Part shown: piece after piece, positions 1,821 to 22,080 of the stretch
Layout of the letters: every line of letters starts with the position of its first letter
Numbering within the stretch: position 1 is the stretch's first letter
NCBI GenBank assembly: GCA_016875195.1
Contig: VGRY01000048.1
Coordinates: 1-33,723, forward strand
Length of the DNA stretch: 33,723 bases
Origin: Deltaproteobacteria bacterium
GTDB lineage: Bacteria; Desulfobacterota; BSN033; UBA1163
Reading direction: 5' to 3'
The notes under the pieces: model-generated
Told to the model about the DNA's origin: nothing
Seen by the model: only the letters and a program-made list of their open reading frames with translations
Databases searched by the model: none
Made by a program: the position numbers and the translations under genes

Positions 1821-2948
1821 ATGGAAAATAAATCTCCATTGATCAGAGAGTTTGAGAGAATCGCTTCTCTCGAATATAAAGATATCAAATCTCATCTCCC
1901 TGGAGATCGCATCCCGATCGGTTTTTTCTGCCCCTACGTTCCGGAGGAGATGCTTCATGCTGCGGGGGCGCTTCCCTTCCGTCTGATGGGGCCTCCGATC
2001 AAGATGTCCCGTGTCCAGGCCCACATTCCTCCCAACTGTTGCCATCTGGCAAAATCGTCTCTTGAAGGTCTGCTGCAGGGAGAACTTGATTTCTTAAAAG
2101 GAATCATCTTCAGCCACACCTGCGATGTGATGCAGGGTCTTTCCGATATCTTTGCTTTCCAGAAACGCATCCCTCTCCAGTTCCATTTGATGATCCCGTC
2201 GAACCTGAGTTCCGAACGTTCCCTTCCCTATCTGAAGGAGGAATTCAGACGATTCAAGGAGTTCCTTGAAACAAATGTCGGGGTAGTGACACGGGAGAGC
2301 CTGGCAGGTTCCATCCGGCTCTTTAATCAGATCAGAGAAAAAATTCAGCGTCTTTATCAACTCAGACGAATCGGGCCCGGCCTGATATCGGGTAATGACT
2401 TTGCTCAAATCATTCGGGCCGGATACCAAATGGATCGCAACCGCTACCTTGCCCTCTTAGACGAATTGCTGAATGGATTACCGCTGGATCATGAGGGAGC
2501 AGGTGGGTTCGTCCCTGTTTACCTCATCGGCAATATGATCCACTCCCCTTCTTATTTGACGATGATCGAAGAGGCAGGAGCCTCTGTCGTCTATGACAAT
2601 CTCTGCAGTGGAGCGCGATTCCTACGCCTCATGACACGTGAGGATATCGACCCAATAGATGGTCTTGCGGAAAGATATGTATCATCTTTCTTATGTCCGG
2701 CAAAACACGGAGGACCAAGCGCTCATCTTGAAGTCCTGATTAAAGAGATGGAGGAATCCGGAGCCAAAGGCGTGATCTTTCTCTTCTATAAATACTGTGA
2801 GCCACACTACTTTGATTATCCGGACTTGAAAAGTGCTCTCGAGGCCAAGTCCATTCCTTCTCTGCTCCTGGAAGTGGATGACCCCGCCACCTCGCAAGGA
2901 CAACTGAAAATAAGGATACAAGCATTTGTAGAAATGCTGACGGGATAG
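1821..2948 (+). CDS. 2-hydroxyacyl-CoA dehydratase / benzoyl-CoA reductase family subunit (BcrC/HgdB-like)
   Basis: Member of the HGD-D family (PF06050), iron-sulfur subunits that work in pairs and receive ATP-activated electrons from a separate BcrA/HgdC-type activator. Visible landmarks are the N-terminal PEEMLHAAGALPFRL segment, H-T-C-D-V-M-Q-G-L near residue 100, and the C-terminal FLFYKYCEPHYFDYPDLKSAL, which resembles the BcrC-like partner of this family. The length of 375 aa is normal. The Cys residues of HTCD and KYCEP are candidate cluster ligands. It is followed after a palindrome by a second family member on the same strand, so the two likely form one heterodimer. No activator ATPase is in the window, and the substrate cannot be inferred. 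The start ATG has only a weak ribosome-binding site. Confidence 0.87.
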   Translation: MENKSPLIREFERIASLEYKDIKSHLPGDRIPIGFFCPYVPEEMLHAAGALPFRLMGPPIKMSRVQAHIPPNCCHLAKSSLEGLLQGELDFLKGIIFSHTCDVMQGLSDIFAFQKRIPLQFHLMIPSNLSSERSLPYLKEEFRRFKEFLETNVGVVTRESLAGSIRLFNQIREKIQRLYQLRRIGPGLISGNDFAQIIRAGYQMDRNRYLALLDELLNGLPLDHEGAGGFVPVYLIGNMIHSPSYLTMIEEAGASVVYDNLCSGARFLRLMTREDIDPIDGLAERYVSSFLCPAKHGGPSAHLEVLIKEMEESGAKGVIFLFYKYCEPHYFDYPDLKSALEAKSIPSLLLEVDDPATSQGQLKIRIQAFVEMLTG

Positions 2949-3036
2949 TTCGGAGTAATGAGCTCGGAGTTCGGAGAAATTAAATTCAGATTTATCTATA
3001 TTAAATTTGTACTCCGAACTACGAACTCCGAACTCC
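2947..3036. repeat. long intergenic palindrome, word TTCGGAG/CTCCGAA
   Basis: The left arm repeats AGTTCGGAG with small variations; the right arm is its complement (ACTCCGAACT, ACGAACTCCG). The A/T-rich centre also pairs (AAATTAAATT with ATTAAATTT). The left end overlaps the TAG stop of the upstream dehydratase subunit. It lies between two genes expected to be co-expressed. Confidence 0.75.
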
Positions 3037-3068
3037 AAACTTAAAGGCGGTCATTCCCTAAGAAAGTC

Positions 3069-4450: not shown

Positions 4451-4490
4451 AAATGTACCTAAAATTGCGATCGCAATTTTAGGTACATTT
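4451..4490. repeat. perfect 40-bp palindrome, copy 1 of a dispersed repeat
   Basis: Both 20-bp halves are exact reverse complements with no spacer. The half-site core is GTACCTAAAATTGCG and the centre is GCGATCGC. A second copy with the same core lies at 16572-16607. It sits in the 272-base gap between the plus-strand dehydratase subunit and the minus-strand nitroreductase, where a bidirectional terminator could be useful, but no flanking T-run is present. Confidence 0.9.
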
Positions 4491-5279: not shown

Positions 5280-5705
5280 TTATCTTAGGAAACGCCAGCG
5301 GAGCCCAGGAAACCTTGCATAATAGCGATCGAGAGTGACCCATTCACACCCAGATTCGATAGCCAGTGCGGCAAACCATGCGTCCGGAACTAAATTACCG
5401 CGAATTTTCATTTCGAGGCACAATCGGTTGAAGATTTCCCAATGTCGCTCTCCTGGAAGAACAATGATACAATGAGGTTGACTTAGCAGAATATTAGAGA
5501 AATGGAAGACTTCATCCAAGGAGCTCGGCACAGAAAATACTTTATGGTGGGTTACAATGCGGATCACACTGCTTAAAACTTGCGGAGCCATCCCATAGCG
5601 TGCATCGCCATTGACGACTTCATCCAGCCACCCCCGACAGACGGCATGATTGGGAGTATCAGATCGAAAAGCTTGAACGAGGATGTTGACATCAGGGAGA
5701 ATCAC
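5280..5705 (-). CDS. vapC: VapC-type toxin, PIN-domain ribonuclease
   Basis: 141-aa PIN-domain protein, the RNase toxin of a type II toxin-antitoxin pair. It begins MILPDVNILVQAF, with the first catalytic Asp at residue 5. The C-terminal signature GNLVPDAWFAALAIESG (Asp108) continues to TLDRYYARFPGLRW (Asp126), typical of the VapC subfamily whose members end in ARFPGLRW. The acidic residue many PIN proteins carry near residue 43-46 is not obvious here (PQVLSSVIRI), so three acidic positions are certain and the fourth is unclear. The start is a GTG that overlaps the antitoxin stop by four bases (GTGA), so translation is probably coupled. Cleavage target unknown. Confidence 0.88.
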   Translation of the reverse strand: MILPDVNILVQAFRSDTPNHAVCRGWLDEVVNGDARYGMAPQVLSSVIRIVTHHKVFSVPSSLDEVFHFSNILLSQPHCIIVLPGERHWEIFNRLCLEMKIRGNLVPDAWFAALAIESGCEWVTLDRYYARFPGLRWRFLR

Positions 5706-5941
5706 GGCATTCCCATGACTTCCTCAAGGGCGCCGGATTGATTAAGATCAACTCCGGGCAACACACCGCCTGTGGCTTTGGATACAGGCAACCTCACCCG
5801 TTTCCGCGGATGCATCTTCGGTCTGGTTAGGGTAAGGGCTAAACCCTCTTCAATGACCGAAGTTAGACTGCGTCCTTCCCTTGCCGCCCGTTGTTTTGCT
5901 CGCTGAAGAAGATCGTTCTTTATTCTGACGGTTGTTCTCAT
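5702..5941 (-). CDS. vapB: VapB-type antitoxin with ribbon-helix-helix N-terminus
   Basis: 79-aa antitoxin. The N-terminal MRTTVRIKNDLLQRAKQRAA is a short beta strand plus helix typical of ribbon-helix-helix DNA-binding proteins, followed by GRSLTSVIEEGL. The C-terminal tail, with LPVSKATGGVLPGVDLNQS, would wrap the toxin. The open frame extends upstream to 6007, but a near-consensus promoter lies between 5949 and 5977, inside that extension. The ATG at 5941 is therefore the likely start. Free VapBC complex normally represses its own promoter, and a palindrome suited to this overlaps the -35 box. Confidence 0.87.
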   Translation of the reverse strand: MRTTVRIKNDLLQRAKQRAAREGRSLTSVIEEGLALTLTRPKMHPRKRVRLPVSKATGGVLPGVDLNQSGALEEVMGMP

Positions 5942-5948
5942 GTATGAA

Positions 5949-5977
5949 ATCATATCACTTAGACATAAATATGTCAA
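5949..5977 (-). promoter_or_regulatory. vapBC promoter with overlapping operator palindrome
   Basis: On the minus strand, TTGACA (5972-5977), a 17-base spacer and TATGAT (5949-5954) make a near-consensus sigma-70 promoter. A perfect inverted repeat GACATA-AA-TATGTC (plus strand, 5962-5975) overlaps the -35 box and spacer, the expected place for VapBC autorepression. The predicted transcription start (about seven bases after the -10) is at or within two bases of the vapB ATG at 5941, so the mRNA would be leaderless. Confidence 0.75.
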
Positions 5978-6035
5978 GCTAGAAAAAAACAACTTAACAG
6001 CACCCAATATCTTTTTCCAGCCCCTGTTTCAGGTT

Positions 6036-6520: not shown

Positions 6521-6646
6521 TATAGTGAACGACTTAACAAAATTGACCTCCATCATGTGTCATTGCGAACGAAGTGAAGCAATCTCATGAGATTGCCACG
6601 TCGCTTCGCTCCTCGCAATGACTACTCTTCAAAGTCGTTCACTATA
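6521..6646. repeat. GTCATTGCGA palindromic element (~126 bp)
   Basis: The outer arms TATAGTGAACGACTT (6521-6535) and AAGTCGTTCACTATA (6632-6646) are perfect inverted repeats. Inside them are GTCATTGCGAACGAAGTGAA and, inverted, TCGCTTCGCTCCTCGCAATGAC, with a CAATCTCATGAGATTG centre. From memory, GTCATTGCGA-type palindromes of this kind are widespread repeats in many bacterial phyla. The right arm lies inside the 3' end of the GNAT gene and encodes its last residues. Confidence 0.85.
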
Positions 6647-8334: not shown

Positions 8335-8337
8335 TCA

Positions 8338-8456
8338 ATGTCAAATGTCAAAGTTCAACTTTCAAATTAAATCCAAAGACCGAATGTCAAACAATATTTT
8401 AAATTTTGGAATTTGGCATTCCTTTGACATTTGGATTTTGAAATTTGAAATTAATC
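8338..8456. repeat. long intergenic palindrome, words CAAATGTCAAAG / CTTTGACATTTGG
   Basis: The left arm carries TCAAATGTCAAAGTTC and CAAATTAAATCCAAAG. The right arm carries their imperfect complements CTTTGACATTTGGATTTTG and TTTGGAATTTGG. It fills the gap between the P-loop gene stop (8456-8458) and the APH-like gene start. It is A/T-rich and belongs to the same word family as the palindromes at 9081, 10186 and 10798. Confidence 0.75.
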
Positions 8457-9064
8457 TAACTCCTTTTTTCGATCTTTCGGATCTTCCAGTCAGGTGCGGT
8501 GTCATATTCGGTGTCAATCGTGAGGTGAATGATGGATAATTTCGGAGCCCTCTTTTTCAAATCGTCAATATTAATGGGCTGGAAAATCGCTTTATTATTG
8601 AGATAGGCCTCCCGTGTGAGAGCATTCGATTCGTAGTTTTCTTTCGTCCTTTTCAGAATTCTTTCGATTGATTTTTCTTCCGTACAGGCGCACTCGGCAA
8701 TCACAAAAGGTCGATTGGCCTTTTCAGCAATTTCTGCAGCCTGCATCCTCAAATCCTGGGTGACGAAGGTGGCATCCAGGATTAATCCCCCTGAATTTAC
8801 CTCCAGAGCTTCTTGTGCCATTCGAAACATCTCCTCGTAAACCTTTCTCCTGTTTTCGGGGCTGGAAGCAACCTTATTGTCAAAAATATCCTGCCCTTTC
8901 AGTACCTCCAGGCGAATCAGATCCGAACGGAGAATCTGAAACCCTTTCATCTTTGCGATCTCCTCGGTCACCGGGCTCTTCCAGCTTCCCGGAAGTCCCA
9001 TAGAGATCAGCACAGAATTCTTCGGAATCTCCGATTCAATCACCTCTACAAAAGCTCTTTCCAT
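8456..9064 (-). CDS. P-loop kinase-like protein (COG0645 type) with altered Walker A
   Basis: 202-aa P-loop domain of the predicted-kinase family that usually forms the C-terminal half of COG2187 fusion proteins. Supporting segments are SVLISMGLPGSWKSPVTEEIA near residue 20, LILDATFVTQDLRMQAAEIAE, and CACTEEKSIERILKR. The Walker A should read G-L-P-G-S-G-K-S-T, but here it is G-L-P-G-S-W-K-S-P (residues 23-31): the invariant third Gly is Trp and the Thr is Pro. Each change needs only a single base (GGG to TGG, ACN to CCN). The frame is otherwise intact with a Shine-Dalgarno (AAGGGGG) before ATG. It is either a non-binding paralogue or an early pseudogene. Transcribed ahead of the APH-like gene. 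Confidence 0.78.
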   Translation of the reverse strand: MERAFVEVIESEIPKNSVLISMGLPGSWKSPVTEEIAKMKGFQILRSDLIRLEVLKGQDIFDNKVASSPENRRKVYEEMFRMAQEALEVNSGGLILDATFVTQDLRMQAAEIAEKANRPFVIAECACTEEKSIERILKRTKENYESNALTREAYLNNKAIFQPINIDDLKKRAPKLSIIHLTIDTEYDTAPDWKIRKIEKRS

Positions 9065-9080
9065 TGCAACCCCCTTCTTG

Positions 9081-9190
9081 TTGAATCACCAAATCTCAAT
9101 AACCAAATAATCACCAAATCTCAACAACCAAAATATAAAAAGTCTATTGGGGACATGGGTTATTGGTCATTATTTGGTGATTGGAATTTT
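9081..9190. repeat. long intergenic palindrome, words ATAACCAAAT / ATTTGGTGATTGG
   Basis: The left arm has AATCACCAAATCTCAATAACC followed by a near-repeat (AATCACCAAATCTCAACAACC). The right arm has GGTTATTGGTCATTATTTGG and GGTGATTGGAATTTT. It lies between the nucleotidase stop and the P-loop gene start. It is clearly related in word content to the palindrome at 10186-10312 on the other side of the nucleotidase gene. Confidence 0.78.
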
Positions 9191-9198
9191 AGGACCCA

Positions 9199-10185
9199 TC
9201 ACATCTCCAGCGCTTTTAGAACGACTCCATGCAAAATCCCATTGCTCGCAAGGATCCCACGATTTTTTTCGAGCTTAATGCCGCAGGAAAAATCCAGGGG
9301 CTTGCCATCGAGATCGGTCACTGTACCTCCTGCTTCCTCGGTAATAATCGCACCTGCCGCATGGTCCCAGATCTTTTCTTTGTAACCTGGTTCGGAAGGT
9401 GAAGGAACTCTAAGATAGAGCGTAGCTTCTCCCCTTGCAACGATTCCGTATTTAGCCTGGCTGTCCATCTTGAGAGGAGGTTGGGTAATCCCCAACTTCT
9501 GTGCGAGCTTGAGGTGAGTTATGTGATCAGCATGGTCGGGCTCAACACTTTCTGTAAAAGAGGCTTTCTCCGGGACAGCTACTTTTGAGACATAAAGGGG
9601 TTGACTTGCCTTCCCCTCCAAGTCCATCTGAAAAGTCCCCCTCCCTCTCAAGGCAAGGAAGATACATCCTTTCTTTCCATCAAGCTGGTTTTTGCTCACA
9701 TAGAGATTTGGACAAGCCATAAGTCCAAGTTGCACTACCCCATTCTCAATCAGTGCAAGGGCGATCGCATACTGATCCCCTCTGAGAAAGCCCTTGGTCC
9801 CATCGATCGGATCCAATGTCCAGAACCGATTTCTAACCGAATGGGAGCTGAGATCGATCCACGCACACACCTCATCTGAGGAAGCAGAAGGATAAAAATC
9901 ACCAACATAGCGCGTGACCTGAGCGAGAAGGTTCGAACGATCTGGTTTTCTCAATTCTGTCGAATTTTCCTCGCCCACTACGAGATCATTTGGAAAAGTA
10001 TCTTTGAGCAATTTGCAGATGATTGCCTGAGACCCGTAATCGGCAATCGTTACAGGGGTTCGGTCGCTTTTCTGAATCGATGCTCCTTCAGTGAGATCCT
10101 CCCTGACCTTCTGGCAGAGCCGCGATGCCATGAGGATGGCTTCAAGGGCAGTCGTGACTTCAGGAGAGGAATCATCCATACACAT
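9199..10185 (-). CDS. 3'(2'),5'-bisphosphate nucleotidase / inositol monophosphatase superfamily
   Basis: Mg-dependent, lithium-sensitive-type phosphatase of the IMPase superfamily, most like Hal2/SAL1/CysQ enzymes that hydrolyse 3'-phosphoadenosine 5'-phosphate. Metal-site motifs are VVGEENSTEL (Glu-Glu), FWTLDPIDGTKGFLRGDQYA (DPIDGTKGF, diagnostic for this group) and KIWDHAAGAIITEEAGGTVTDLDG. The length (~328 aa) fits Hal2-like enzymes better than the shorter E. coli CysQ. The open frame continues upstream to 10227, but those codons read through a palindrome. ATG at 10185 (four bases after GGAG) or 10179 are the likely starts. The product would recycle PAP arising from sulfate or acyl-carrier metabolism. 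Confidence 0.87.
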   Translation of the reverse strand: MCMDDSSPEVTTALEAILMASRLCQKVREDLTEGASIQKSDRTPVTIADYGSQAIICKLLKDTFPNDLVVGEENSTELRKPDRSNLLAQVTRYVGDFYPSASSDEVCAWIDLSSHSVRNRFWTLDPIDGTKGFLRGDQYAIALALIENGVVQLGLMACPNLYVSKNQLDGKKGCIFLALRGRGTFQMDLEGKASQPLYVSKVAVPEKASFTESVEPDHADHITHLKLAQKLGITQPPLKMDSQAKYGIVARGEATLYLRVPSPSEPGYKEKIWDHAAGAIITEEAGGTVTDLDGKPLDFSCGIKLEKNRGILASNGILHGVVLKALEM

Positions 10186-10312
10186 AAAACTCCAATAACC
10201 AAATCCCAAATCCCAAATAATAACCAATCACCAAATTCCAATGATCAAACTTGTGTTTTGGACATTGGAGTTTGGAATTTATTTGACTATTGGAGCTTGG
10301 AATTTGGTTATT
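10186..10312. repeat. long intergenic palindrome, words AATAACCAAAT / ATTTGGTTATT
   Basis: The left arm contains AATAACCAAATCCCAAATCC and CACCAAATTCCAATGATC; the right arm contains GGACATTGGAGTTTGG and GGAATTTGGTTATT. The arms pair imperfectly over about 60 bases each. It lies between the tRNA-Leu terminator and the nucleotidase start, and carries the GGAG that may act as Shine-Dalgarno for that gene. Confidence 0.8.
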
Positions 10313-10343
10313 AAAAAAAAGGAGGGGCTGTTCGCCTCTCCTC
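10313..10343 (-). terminator. rho-independent terminator after tRNA-Leu
   Basis: On the minus strand, a G/C-rich hairpin (GGAGAGGC-GAACA-GCCCCTCC, one mismatch) is followed by a run of eight T. It lies 14 bases after the tRNA-Leu 3' end and would close the gap-pgk-tpiA-secG-tRNA transcript. Confidence 0.85.
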
Positions 10344-10356
10344 TCCGTTTCTCAAA

Positions 10357-10442
10357 TGGTGCCGAAGGGGGGATTTGAACCCCCACGGGGATTACCCACC
10401 ACCCCCTCAAGATGGCGTGTCTACCAATTCCACCACTTCGGC
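10357..10442 (-). tRNA. tRNA-Leu (anticodon GAG)
   Basis: 86 nt including an encoded CCA. The acceptor stem GCCGAAG pairs with CTTCGGC and the discriminator is A. The D-arm has TGGTGGAATTGGTAGACA. The anticodon stem-loop CCATC-TTGAGGG-GGTGG gives GAG. There is a long class II variable arm (TGGGTAATCCCC region) and the T-loop is GTTCAAATC with a GGGGG/CCCCC stem. It starts five bases after the secG stop, the same order as secG-leuU in Escherichia coli, where the tRNA is also Leu(GAG). Confidence 0.97.
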
Positions 10443-10447
10443 ATCCT

Positions 10448-10774
10448 TTATTTTTTAGGTTCAGGCACAGGCGCCTGAGGTTGAACCGGAATTTTTTCAG
10501 ATTCAGCAGGAGCGGTCTGGATCGGCTTCTCCTTGATAACCGTCGAGGTGCGCCTGGCTGAGGAATAAGTCAGCAGAAGCGAAGTGATCATGAAGACCAC
10601 TGCTGCAACTGTCGTCAGTTTGCTGAGAAATCCCATCGCTCCTGCGCTTCCGAAAATGGTCTGGCTCGATCCGCCAAACGCAGCCCCCATCTCTGCTCCC
10701 TTCCCTGCCTGAAGAAGGACGATCAAGATAAGGGCAAAACAAACAATAACATGTAATATGATAATGATTGTCAT
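10448..10774 (-). CDS. secG: SecG, protein-export membrane subunit
   Basis: 108-aa small subunit of the SecYEG translocon. It begins with a hydrophobic segment (TIIIILHVIVCFALILIVLLQ). It carries the SecG hallmark LLQAGKGAEMGAAFGGSSQTIFGSAGA (Q-x-G-K-G ... GGSS/FG), then a second membrane helix (TVAAVVFMITSLLLTY), and ends in a Pro/Gln/Glu-rich cytosolic tail. The open frame runs upstream to 10858 through a palindrome, but ATG at 10774 aligns with the usual N-terminus and has AGGGG upstream. It is last in the glycolytic cluster and is followed by tRNA-Leu. Confidence 0.95.
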   Translation of the reverse strand: MTIIIILHVIVCFALILIVLLQAGKGAEMGAAFGGSSQTIFGSAGAMGFLSKLTTVAAVVFMITSLLLTYSSARRTSTVIKEKPIQTAPAESEKIPVQPQAPVPEPKK

Positions 10775-10797
10775 TGATTCAATCCCCTTTTTACACC

Positions 10798-10950
10798 CTA
10801 AATAAATTCGAAATTCGAATATCGAAACACGAAACAAATCCGAATTTTCAAAATCCAAATGTCTTAAACTTTTTTTGTTTCGGACCTTTGAAATTTGGAA
10901 ATTTGAGATTGCTTCGGATTTCGAATTTCGTGCTTCGGATTTTCGAGTTT
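10798..10950. repeat. long intergenic palindrome, words TTCGAAATTCG / CGAATTTCG
   Basis: The left arm includes TTCGAAATTCGAATATCG, CACGAAACAAATCCGAA and CAAAATCCAAATG. The right arm includes TTTGAAATTTGGAAATTTG, TTCGGATTTCGAATTTCGTG and CTTCGGATTTTCGAG. It separates the tpiA stop from the secG start. It is among the longest of the set, and its codons would extend SecG artificially if an upstream start were used. Confidence 0.78.
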
Positions 10951-10957
10951 ATATATA

Positions 10958-15107: not shown

Positions 15108-15115
15108 AAATATAA

Positions 15116-15212
15116 CCCGTTAGAAAAGTGGAGTGTTCATTCTGCCTTGGATAATAATTTGATTTTTATATAGATAACCCCTCTATCATAATCGCAGGGA
15201 TTTTCTAACGGG
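15116..15212. repeat. inverted repeat CCCGTTAGAAAA / TTTTCTAACGGG
   Basis: Perfect 12-bp arms at 15116-15127 and 15201-15212 with ~73 A/T-rich bases between. It starts eight bases after the stop of the hypothetical gene and ends just before the Shine-Dalgarno of the FmdB-like gene, so it could be a terminator, a leader structure, or another dispersed palindrome. Confidence 0.65.
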
Positions 15213-15230
15213 GGTAAAGGAGAATCAACG

Positions 15231-15449: not shown

Positions 15450-15452
15450 CTA

Positions 15453-15570
15453 TGGAACGATGGAATATTGGAATACTGGAACAATGGGAATAAAAGATAG
15501 AACATATCTTGATCATTCGATTTATTTTATTAAATCATTATTCCATTCTTCCATCACCCCATTATTCCCT
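15453..15570. repeat. long intergenic palindrome, words TGGAA / TTCCA
   Basis: The left arm has repeated TGGAA units (GATGGAATATTGGAATACTGGAACAATGGGAATAA); the right arm has TTATTCCATTCTTCCATCACCCCATTATTCC. It fills the whole gap between the convergent FmdB-like and radical SAM genes and directly abuts the TAA stop of the latter, so it may act as a bidirectional terminator. Confidence 0.75.
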
Positions 15571-16571: not shown

Positions 16572-16607
16572 TTGTACCTAAAATTGCGAACGCAATTTTA
16601 GGTACAA
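16572..16607. repeat. 36-bp palindrome, copy 2 of the GTACCTAAAATTGCG repeat
   Basis: Perfect 17-bp arms (TTGTACCTAAAATTGCG and complement) around a two-base AA centre. The 32-bp core is identical to the copy at 4451-4490 except at the two central bases. The flanks differ, so it is a dispersed repeat unit and not part of a longer duplication. It lies in the gap upstream of one radical SAM gene and downstream of another. Confidence 0.9.
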
Positions 16608-21014: not shown

Positions 21015-22080
21015 TTAGGGGACGTTGATGAAATCTGTGAATTTAATCGCCTCCCATTTTTTGAATTGCCTTGACAACGGCTGATCCACATACTCCCACA
21101 TGCCTTGCTATTTCTGCCATCGGTACTCCTTTTTCATGGCTTAAATGAGAGGAGATCTTTGCCCTTAATCTCGATACTTCCCTTCTCTGGCCCCCATTCC
21201 GAAGTTCCTCCTCTCCTACCCCCTCTTCCTTGCACATCCTCTTGATAACATCGTCAATCGATCTTTTCCTTTCTCCAAGTTTCAGCTGCCGTCGCAAGCT
21301 CCGATCCGCCTCCCTCAAAATATCTTGGACGAAATCTTCCCCGCCCAAAATACGCGCATCGTGTTTAATATCCTTTCTTGACTCTCGCAGAGAAAGCACC
21401 TGTGACCAACCGCCGAGGCTTCGAATCAGCCCTCCCCCAACCAGATCCAGCCGCCTCCCCTGCTGCTTTCCCTCTCCCATAAACTTCCGGTAAACTCGAA
21501 TCGCCTTTTTCGTCTCTTCACTGAACTGCCTGAGGACATATTTCGTCTCCTGCCAATGGTTCTTTCTCCTCCTGGTCAGGACGCCATGACCGCACCATGG
21601 GTATCCTTCCAACTCTTCTATACTCTTCACAATCCCTGCCCTTAAAGGATTCAAATGAATGTAGCGAACCAGTTCCATTAGATAAGGGTCCTCTTCACAG
21701 ACAATAGATTTATAACGATTCTGAAACAGATGACCGTTTCTGCGATGTCTCAAATTATATCGAACCGCATAACCCGTCAAAAGTCGCCGCATAAATTTAG
21801 AAATTCCCTTAGGACCGCTGAATATCAAGAGGTGGATGTGATTTTCCATGAGAGCCCAAGCCAGCACTCTCGTTTGGGTCATTCCCACCAATTGACTGAC
21901 CCGAGAGACAAAATCTTGCCGGTCCTGGTCGTCAAGAAATATTGGGCAACCTTCAATTCCCCGTACCATCACATGGTGAAGGATTCCGGGTGCGTCTAAT
22001 CTCGCTTGCCGTGGCATAAAAACCTTTTATCACAATTACCAATCAATGTAAAGTGATGATTTTCAGCAACGTCCCCTAAA
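21015..22080. mobile_element. candidate REP-associated transposase element bounded by inverted repeats
   Basis: The left end TTAGGGGACGTTGATGAAATC (21015-21035) and the complement of the right end (22058-22080) read TTAGGGGACGTTG(A/C)TGAAA, so the ends are inverted copies about 19 bp long with one difference. They flank a single gene, the Y1 (HUH) transposase. The right end overlaps the last codons and stop of the neighbouring membrane-protein gene. No target-site duplication is apparent, as expected for HUH enzymes. Confidence 0.75.
21043..22017 (-). CDS. REP-associated tyrosine transposase (Y1/HUH superfamily) with C-terminal DNA-binding extension
   Basis: 324 aa. Begins MPRQARLDAPGILHHVMVRG, the classic TnpA-REP N-terminus. 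The HUH metal motif is ENHIHLLIF (His60, His62) and the nucleophilic Tyr is in ELVRYIHLNPLRAG (Tyr119). GHLFQNRYKS is also conserved. Residues ~150-324 are an extension ending in SSHLSHEKGVPMAEIARHVGVCGSAVVKAI, a helix-turn-helix resembling the DnaA C-terminal DNA-binding domain, frequent in longer members of this family. Enzymes of this group cut single-stranded palindromic repeats. The ORF is intact, so it may be active, and it is a candidate source for some of the palindromes around it. Confidence 0.93.
   Translation of the reverse strand: MPRQARLDAPGILHHVMVRGIEGCPIFLDDQDRQDFVSRVSQLVGMTQTRVLAWALMENHIHLLIFSGPKGISKFMRRLLTGYAVRYNLRHRRNGHLFQNRYKSIVCEEDPYLMELVRYIHLNPLRAGIVKSIEELEGYPWCGHGVLTRRRKNHWQETKYVLRQFSEETKKAIRVYRKFMGEGKQQGRRLDLVGGGLIRSLGGWSQVLSLRESRKDIKHDARILGGEDFVQDILREADRSLRRQLKLGERKRSIDDVIKRMCKEEGVGEEELRNGGQRREVSRLRAKISSHLSHEKGVPMAEIARHVGVCGSAVVKAIQKMGGD

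Follow-up and report, generated by a model that had tools for sequence, protein, structure and literature searches.

Intergenic palindromes of a deltaproteobacterial contig as probable gene-less relatives of elements carrying the 23S rRNA intervening sequence protein

Related systems and the palindromes of the window

According to PMC4990558, the intervening sequences (IVSs) of 23S rRNA are stem-loops with terminal inverted repeats, some of which contain an S23p/IVP ORF; they occur sporadically and are thought to have spread horizontally. REPIN/RAYT systems, as presented in PMC3116915, consist of short hairpins scattered among gaps, with many copies lacking a gene and few linked to one; each family is paired with its own protein. 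Furthermore, PMC10053308 reports that IVP resembles Avd, both being four-helix bundles.

The closest known kind to the palindromes described here is the 23S rRNA IVS. The word-built elements of the window (the whole analysed stretch of 33,723 nucleotides, contig VGRY01000048.1) are likewise stem-loops with terminal inverted repeats, and in the CGAA, TTCGGAG and TGGAAT families, though not in the window copies, an IVP gene lies between the arms; they differ in that the window copies are located between genes rather than in a 23S rRNA helix, are numerous per genome, are composed of 7- or 8-base words, and are gene-less. With REPIN/RAYT they share the occurrence in gaps, the many gene-less copies, the few gene-linked loci and a family-specific protein, but this protein is an IVP and not a Y1 transposase, the hairpins have a word lexicon and the same consensus across phyla, and no linkage to RAYT was found. 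Like MITEs, they are non-autonomous, with a common consensus (CNAA) and sharp ends (CGAA copies); unlike them, they are near-palindromic throughout and lack target duplication (CGAA copies). In contrast to diversity-generating retroelements, their own genome (G000) has no PF00078 reverse transcriptase match; such an enzyme was rejected as a needed partner, being matched in 16 of 34 genomes (17 of 35 rows, since G073 repeats G007). The literature searched, covering few subscription journals and including PMC11270868, gave no description of intergenic gene-less IVP hairpins.

The earlier note had reported long palindromes, with arms made of repeated short words, in at least seven gaps of the window. 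Six of the seven listed are real, as judged from inverted repeats, profile matches and a genome-wide fold excess:

2947..3041, + strand: TTCGGAG hairpin (CTNCGAA heptad), gene-less; inverted-repeat search, fold scan and profile
8339..8452, - strand: CNAA superfamily hairpin, CAAA type, gene-less; profile, orthologous gap compared
9083..9189, - strand: CNAA superfamily hairpin, CCAA type, gene-less; profile, orthologous gap compared
10186..10312, - strand: CNAA superfamily hairpin, CCAA type, gene-less; profile, orthologous gap compared
10804..10944, - strand: CNAA superfamily hairpin, CGAA type, gene-less, in the tpiA-secG gap; profile, orthologous gap compared
15452..15568, + strand: TGGAAT octad hairpin, gene-less; profile

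All six lie between protein or tRNA genes, and inverted repeats were retrieved at 2947-3041, 8369-8445, 9091-9189, 10187-10313 and 10804-10942. The less clear seventh candidate, 15116-15212, is a different repeat without word arms; its ends, CCCGTTAGAAA and TTTCTAACGGG, recur, among the matches listed, in a non-word hairpin (L028:19291-19450 and L023:18306-18465). A search of Rfam at E up to 1 placed no family on the palindromes of the window.

The excess of palindromes over chance was borne out in 433,723 bases of the same genome, where, of the 261 gaps measuring 60 bp or more, 66 contained a stretch with fold z<-4, vs. 1 among 261 length-matched coding stretches, limited to 480 bp (Fisher p about 1e-20). 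The word composition of the arms also holds: the left arm was periodic in 33 of 210 hairpin domains (p at most 0.02 of 50 shuffles), with about 4 to 8 expected. As for single gaps, z was -2.9 at 8335-8455, -1.3 at 9065-9198 and -0.8 at 10859-10957, the last being a place at which an ORF call had cut the element; thus, not every window copy reaches an extreme fold score by itself. ORF calls in the window start inside hairpins, which represents a warning for gene callers.

Three points of the earlier note stand: the architecture is constant, the arms are composed of words, and the copies are unlike classical REPs. The supposed lack of a shared consensus does not hold for four of the six palindromes (8338, 9081, 10186 and 10798), which can be aligned as one CNAA superfamily; in it, four NNNCNAA heptads and, after a short break, inner words lead up to the loop and the mirror image. 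The CCAAAT, TTCGAA and TCAAAT palindromes have a single common consensus; TTCGGAG and TGGAAT represent separate families.

The gene between the arms

The property was said to belong to no named system. This is overturned by the gene-bearing versions, whose single gene encodes IVP, a four-helix bundle of a named family (PF05635/TIGR02436, "23S rRNA intervening sequence protein"). IVP is not known to have a catalytic domain. Seven pairs of arms were 250-5000 bp apart, two of them being one place in two loci; IVP was enclosed in two (L131 and L161; PF05635 E 4e-13 and 2e-14, with TIGR02436 matching too), and the other pairs are probably two separate elements flanking a gene. IVP was also found between CGAA arms in L347 and, in L346, between arms that mix CGAA and CCAA; pure CCAA arms around an IVP gene were not encountered. 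TTCGGAG arms enclose IVP in the window's own genome (G000:C45, L315) and in G007 (L325), and TGGAAT arms do so in G002 (L323).

Flanking inverted repeats above all shuffles were present in 22 of the 30 best-matching IVP loci vs. 8 of 79 control ORFs treated by the same procedure. Armed IVP loci amounted to 22/25 within the genus, to 54/59 distinct copies (flanks taken from the domain border) vs. 6/81 ordinary ORFs of like geometry, and to 17/21 in further genomes, two of these being G007 loci met again via G073; the four sets (30, 25, 59 and 21) overlap. Further IVP-bearing vocabularies above shuffles include TAGTC, ATCAGG, GGGTTCAA, GTGTTAA, GAGTTAA, GTATCGA and GTGACCGTG, while GAACGATG was recognised by eye only, its score tying with the best shuffle. 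Five of the 59 IVPs had no arms above shuffles; one of these, L149, is closely related to the group with CGAA arms.

In the window's own genome, gene-less copies outnumber IVP genes. An IVP-like start, ATGACCAAA, was found in the inner arm of gene-less CGAA copies, more often on the left (47/131; 16/29 in the own genome) than on the right (16/131; 3/29).

Moreover, the outer-arm vocabulary follows IVP identity: comparing different genomes only, and with flanks that may still hold a few N-terminal codons, the Mantel r was 0.42 (largest of 2000 permutations, 0.17), and the vocabulary was common to 26 of 40 IVP pairs with at least 60% identity vs. 7 of 1144 pairs below 40%. The CNAA-armed IVPs of a deltaproteobacterium, a member of Berkelbacteria, one of Aminicenantes and a gammaproteobacterium share 64-72% identity and are mutually best matches; after them, the closest IVP, whose arms are of another kind, reaches 42-45%. 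Linkage inside one element, without recognition, can explain this correlation.

Distribution, ends and competing explanations

The element is multi-copy, between genes and with the same skeleton in several unrelated phyla. Since IVP-gene elements also lie between genes in several phyla, the family known from rRNA insertions looks intergenic too. CCAAAT matches were retrieved from 19 of 59 genomes, patchily even inside one genus (G004 and G008 without a match); nearly all the named genomes are metagenome assemblies. All 19 positive genomes harbor PF05635 (G052 weakly, E 3.5e-4), and none of the 14 PF05635-negative genomes has a CCAAAT match (Fisher p 0.002). IVP is also present in 26 of 40 CCAAAT-negative genomes, and is therefore not sufficient. 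Among 17 CGAA-positive rows, one of which is G007 again, 15 had PF05635; G060 and G069, small Patescibacteria genomes, gave no match. The CGAA and CCAA queries retrieved nothing from 72,556 plasmid records, nor the CGAA query from 50,697 phages; an 18-base pattern occurred in two viral contigs.

Sharp ends at AA...TT were observed in 89 CGAA copies, without target-site duplication (mean longest shared flank 3.17 vs. 2.95 shuffled). In orthologous gaps, after spurious pairs from two-component genes had been set aside, vocabularies were exchanged and, among the pairs listed, gene-bearing and gene-less forms stood in for one another; some gaps had no palindrome or another vocabulary, and the comparison yielded no clean empty site.

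According to these data, the palindromes are probably gene-less copies of small mobile elements consisting of inverted arms of a repeated 7- or 8-base word, the gene-bearing members of which have one IVP gene. The unit would move as a foldback nucleic acid whose words IVP would recognise; IVP supplied from other loci of the cell, acting with a host nuclease or polymerase, might mobilise gene-less copies in trans, and copies might then diversify through template switching between repeated words.

That RAYT, a Y1 transposase, moves them as REPIN-like elements is very unlikely. Solo hairpins with few gene-linked copies are a like architecture (PMC3116915), the window contains a Y1_Tnp gene (21043-22017), and PF01797 was found in 14 of 15 rows in the cross-phyla genome set (one row being G007 again); nevertheless, the repeats occur without PF01797 in G026 (14 CCAAAT matches), G037 (2) and G063 (40 CGAA matches), G017, G018 and G057 have PF01797 but no CCAAAT match, and the window Y1 gene is flanked by a different inverted repeat, AGGGGACGTTG. 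RAYT was rejected as the mover on this presence/absence pattern. We regard as at least equally improbable that the palindromes are host RNA structures under selection (terminators, or mRNA-processing or stability hairpins) and not mobile: CNAA elements do lie mostly between co-directional genes (35 of the 39 classifiable among 41, vs. 167 of 239 gaps) and are oriented along genes (46:16), but in orthologous gaps they are missing or other vocabularies take their place, and the same sequence is patchy within a genus and shared by distant phyla. In G074, a complete chromosome, the elements did not follow the direction of the genes (of 20 sites, 8 were sense and 10 antisense). Replication-oriented insertion, considered on this chromosome, was discarded: strands do cluster regionally, but the borders had been set post hoc and the GC skew was too weak for a decision.

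The earlier note had suggested that the palindromes are generated locally, for example by slippage combined with strand switching; without any mobile unit, this would be a further alternative. One core is common to the words of an element (purity 0.84 vs. 0.55 shuffled, 37 elements), part of the variation consists of whole words, many being swapped whole, and median copy identity is alike within (0.84) and between genomes (0.83). The word-swap reading rests on GCA and TAT slots; the others are mainly ATC/ATT, a single transition, which point mutation explains equally well. Against local generation are the sharp ends, the single consensus across phyla and the IVP gene inside the arms: the units are discrete and share a skeleton in several phyla, and thus were very probably not generated locally. 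The idea that the palindromes grew in place is accordingly very improbable, although slippage and strand switching can still account for the turnover of words within copies, and words are in part exchanged there.

Word pairing and a possible protein-word system

Opposed words avoid pairing, being identical in 31 of 324 cases with 59 expected; for the CCAA family the count was 0/18 with 1.3 expected, a comparison without power as both arms were readable in only 6 of 42 elements. For the mobile elements proposed above, the mismatch kept between opposed words would cap the length of uninterrupted helix, perhaps as a safeguard from nucleases that cut hairpins or duplexes.

More tentatively, they may represent a minimal mobile element, the sole gene of which encodes a small four-helix-bundle protein without known catalytic domain, recognising a foldback in its own 7/8-base lexicon. 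Lexicon and protein would vary in concert, with many parallel vocabularies in different bacteria as the outcome, opposed words would have to avoid exact pairing, and Avd of diversity-generating retroelements might be a relative of the hairpin-binding protein. Already on the main reading, the intergenic palindromes of many uncultured bacteria gain an identity and a link to the IVP family; the function of IVP becomes testable, as binding of own-vocabulary hairpins and moving of gene-less copies, and a natural series of protein-word pairs is on offer. Probing the PDB with a profile of 24 IVPs retrieved no Avd chain, only 2GSC and 2RLD (E up to 0.1); one IVP weakly matched the Avd model of NCBIfam (E 3.6e-6, short of the cut-off).

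Word-built hairpins of the window and their families

Inverted repeats were found in the window at 2947-3041, 8369-8445, 9091-9189, 10187-10313, and 10804-10942, and profile matches delimit six units with inverted arms of repeated words; these are given here with a hairpin of a different kind (L-numbers denote stretches pulled from the compared genomes, which bear G-numbers):

2947-3041, word-hairpin unit, profile match
8339-8452, word-hairpin unit, profile match
9083-9189, word-hairpin unit, profile match
10186-10312, word-hairpin unit, profile match
10804-10944, word-hairpin unit, profile match
15452-15568, word-hairpin unit, profile match
15110-15216, hairpin not built of words, its ends reading CCCGTTAGAAA / TTTCTAACGGG; similar hairpins at L028:19291-19450 and L023:18306-18465

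The earlier note had listed 15116-15212, as its less clear case, among the word-built palindromes; the arms are not word-built, and the ends recur in a different dispersed hairpin. The absence of a shared consensus, also claimed there, has to be abandoned for four of the six units: iterated profiles from CCAA, CGAA, CAAA, and CTAA seeds (types of the CNAA superfamily) reach nearly one set of matches, 74 to 78 of 76 to 79 being common in pairwise comparison. The intergenic abundance of palindromes was borne out by folding, with a stretch of z<-4 in 66/261 gaps versus 1/261 coding controls (433,723 bases of the source genome).

CNAA matches merge to 41 elements in 453,723 bases of this genome. 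With duplicates removed, the CGAA profile yielded 65 elements in 853,723 bases (76 per Mb), from which about 310 per genome are extrapolated. Their skeleton consists of four heptads NNNCNAA, then ACAA/ATAA/GGAA, inner words, the loop, and the mirror of all these. Further families, besides additional ones present as single cases, are reported below.

Locus counts, fragments included, for the other word families of the same DNA
TTCGGAG: 18
TGGAAT: 14
GCGGATT: 13, 3 of them overlapping TTCGGAG
GTTACGG: 10
TAGTC: 9
ATCAGG: 8
GGGTTCAA: 7
GTGACCGTG: 6
GTATCGA: 4, up to 4 common to GTTACGG

The window also harbors:

4451-4490 and 16572-16607, two copies of the perfect palindrome TGTACCTAAAATTGCG..CGCAATTTTAGGTACA, the former 40 bp and loopless
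5280-6007 (-), PIN-domain protein (PF01850) adjoining a small protein
6559-6622, hairpin GTCATTGCGAACGAAGTGAAGCAATCTC, with more copies in L011 and L014
9199-10227 and 10448-10858 (-), ORF calls beginning within palindromes
21043-22017 (-), Y1_Tnp (RAYT-like) gene with its own flanking inverted repeat AGGGGACGTTGATGAAA / TTTTCAGCAACGTCCCCT, not related to the word palindromes

Since those ORF calls begin within palindromes, the repeats mislead gene-start prediction. The PF01850 gene and its small neighbor are likely a toxin-antitoxin pair. At L242:1500-1758, a second insertion breaks a CNAA hairpin; its ends are TTTGTAACACTTTAGC / GCTAAAGTGATACGAAA, and similar insertions lie in gaps of G002 and G005.

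Discrete units with and without an IVP gene

The elements are discrete units occurring in gene-bearing and gene-less forms; their vocabulary is associated with the encoded protein, and they are exchanged at orthologous gaps. In 89 CGAA copies, the outermost words are flanked by AA at the left (97% each base) and by TT at the right (100% and 97%), positions beyond being at background; arm pairing does not continue past these ends, and no target duplication above shuffles was detected in these copies. The CGAA copy is a discrete inserted unit.

The search for CGAA arms set apart retrieved two loci enclosing an ORF (L131 and L161, spacing 436 and 449 bp). Both ORFs match PF05635, the 23S rRNA-intervening sequence protein (IVP; E 4e-13 and 2e-14), and TIGR02436, four helix bundle protein; solved relatives are 2RLD and 2GSC, with five chains each. 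The source genome has 17 PF05635 matches. Inverted arms surround the IVP gene in 22/30 best-matching loci versus 8/79 control ORFs, in 22/25 within the genus, in 54/59 distinct copies versus 6/81 control ORFs, and in 17/21 of an additional set, these sets overlapping one another. Nearly all periodic arms have words of 7 or 8 bases: 64/104 IVP arms are periodic, 60 of the 64 at 7, 8, 14, or 16, as are 55/402 own-hairpin arms (43 at those periods; 8 to 12 periodic arms expected by chance).

IVP arms share vocabularies with gene-less hairpins, including TTCGGAG of the window (L315 of the source genome, L325) and TGGAAT (L323), and between genomes word similarity tracks IVP similarity, with a Mantel r of 0.42 versus at most 0.17 in permutations. 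The IVPs with CGAA arms in a deltaproteobacterium (L131), a member of Berkelbacteria (L161), and one of Aminicenantes (L347), and that with mixed CGAA/CCAA arms in a gammaproteobacterium (L346), agree with one another at 64-72%, the next being other-armed IVPs at 42-45%. A fifth relative, from Desulfobacterales (L149, 61-64%), has CGAA words upstream, its arms being not above shuffles.

Among 59 genomes surveyed, PF05635 is present in 19/19 CCAAAT-positive ones (weakly in G052) and in 26/40 CCAAAT-negative ones, and the 14 genomes without PF05635 gave no CCAAAT match. PF05635 was not found in 2/17 CGAA-positive rows (G060 and G069), which counts against the association of IVP with the elements. 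Presence tests ruled out both a Y1 transposase and a reverse transcriptase as requirements.

Passages of PMC4990558 describe ribosomal intervening sequences (IVSs) as stem-loops, some with an IVP ORF, which RNase III excises, and regard them as probably spread horizontally; PMC11270868 likewise reports an IVP ORF within insertions into the rRNA of CPR bacteria. The window elements resemble gene-less IVSs, yet they sit outside rRNA and are therefore not classed as IVSs proper. The inferred mechanism is mobilization of gene-less copies in trans by IVP and host enzymes, via a foldback intermediate, with word swapping arising from template switching.

Word variation and orientation

Six words (ATC, ATT, TAT, GCA, ACT, and TTT) make up 92% of the 555 words preceding CGAA in 88 elements, a sample enriched for one right-arm word via the 18-base search piece. 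In the two left slots with GCA as the most frequent word, 38 and 25 words differ from GCA at all three bases and one-step variants number 2 and 2; these slots thus vary by exchange of entire words. Variation in the innermost and outer slots is mainly ATC/ATT, a single transition, which fits swapping and point mutation alike.

The words of one element share their core (purity 0.84 versus 0.55 shuffled, 37 elements). Opposed words are identical in 31/324 cases versus 59.4 expected (s.d. 5.7; 0/3000 shuffles that low), in 3/71 versus 11.0 in the source genome alone, and perfect runs of at least 11 bp occur in 9/58 elements versus 21 expected. For ATC versus ATT, phi is -0.55, -0.38, and -0.49 in the three testable opposed slots (n 38, 22, 42) and from -0.29 to +0.39 in the remaining slot pairs. 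An origin of this avoidance from two lineages would link all slots, and such linkage was not seen; intolerance of short perfect palindromes alone does not explain it either, because the same window holds the 40-bp perfect palindrome at 4451-4490.

Taking the IVP-gene strand in L131 and L161 as the sense strand, agreement with co-directional flanking genes is 18:7 in the source genome (p 0.04) and 28:9 in other genomes (p 0.003; 2e-4 with the source genome included); on one complete chromosome (G074) it is 8:10. A ATGACCAAA-like start context occurs in the left inner arm of 47/131 gene-less copies and in the right of 16/131.

Spread across phyla and exchange at orthologous gaps

The 18-base piece of the CGAA arm matched at least 111 stretches, some single matches being expected by chance alone. 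Among the matches listed, 96/111 have a profile match at the same place (72/111 of at least 100 bp), and 110/111 records are metagenome assemblies, the sole isolate being Wenzhouxiangella sp. 15190. Profile-matched records among them come from Deltaproteobacteria of many orders, Gammaproteobacteria, Aminicenantes, another Acidobacteriota, many Patescibacteria, Verrucomicrobia/Lentisphaerae, Planctomycetes, and Bacteroidia; in Nitrospirae and Ignavibacteria, all matches were short. Fifteen genomes searched whole gave 2 to 70 CGAA matches each, both strands counted; one of them (G073) has the match coordinates of G007 and is the same-genus genome repeated. Median element identity is 0.84 within and 0.83 between genomes, the between-genome set being mostly picked via the 18-base piece and aligner gaps being cheap.

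The gene order tpiA, secG, tRNA-Leu, cysQ, kinase, phosphotransferase is conserved in 13/16 genomes, the remaining three stretches having yielded only tpiA, secG, and the tRNA.

Vocabulary of the tpiA-secG gap, assigned by eye (G000, source genome)
CGAA words: G000, G005, G009, G015, G016
CTAA words: G001, G002
Outer CGAA, CTAA at the tip: G006
CCAA words: G007, G011
ATCAGG words: G003
No recognized vocabulary: G004, G008, G010, G013, G014

Elsewhere, a GAGTTAA-worded IVP gene in G006 and G002 (in G002, one arm contains a stretch of N) corresponds to a gene-less GTGTCC hairpin in the source genome, and an IVP gene in G007 to a gene-less CGAA hairpin.
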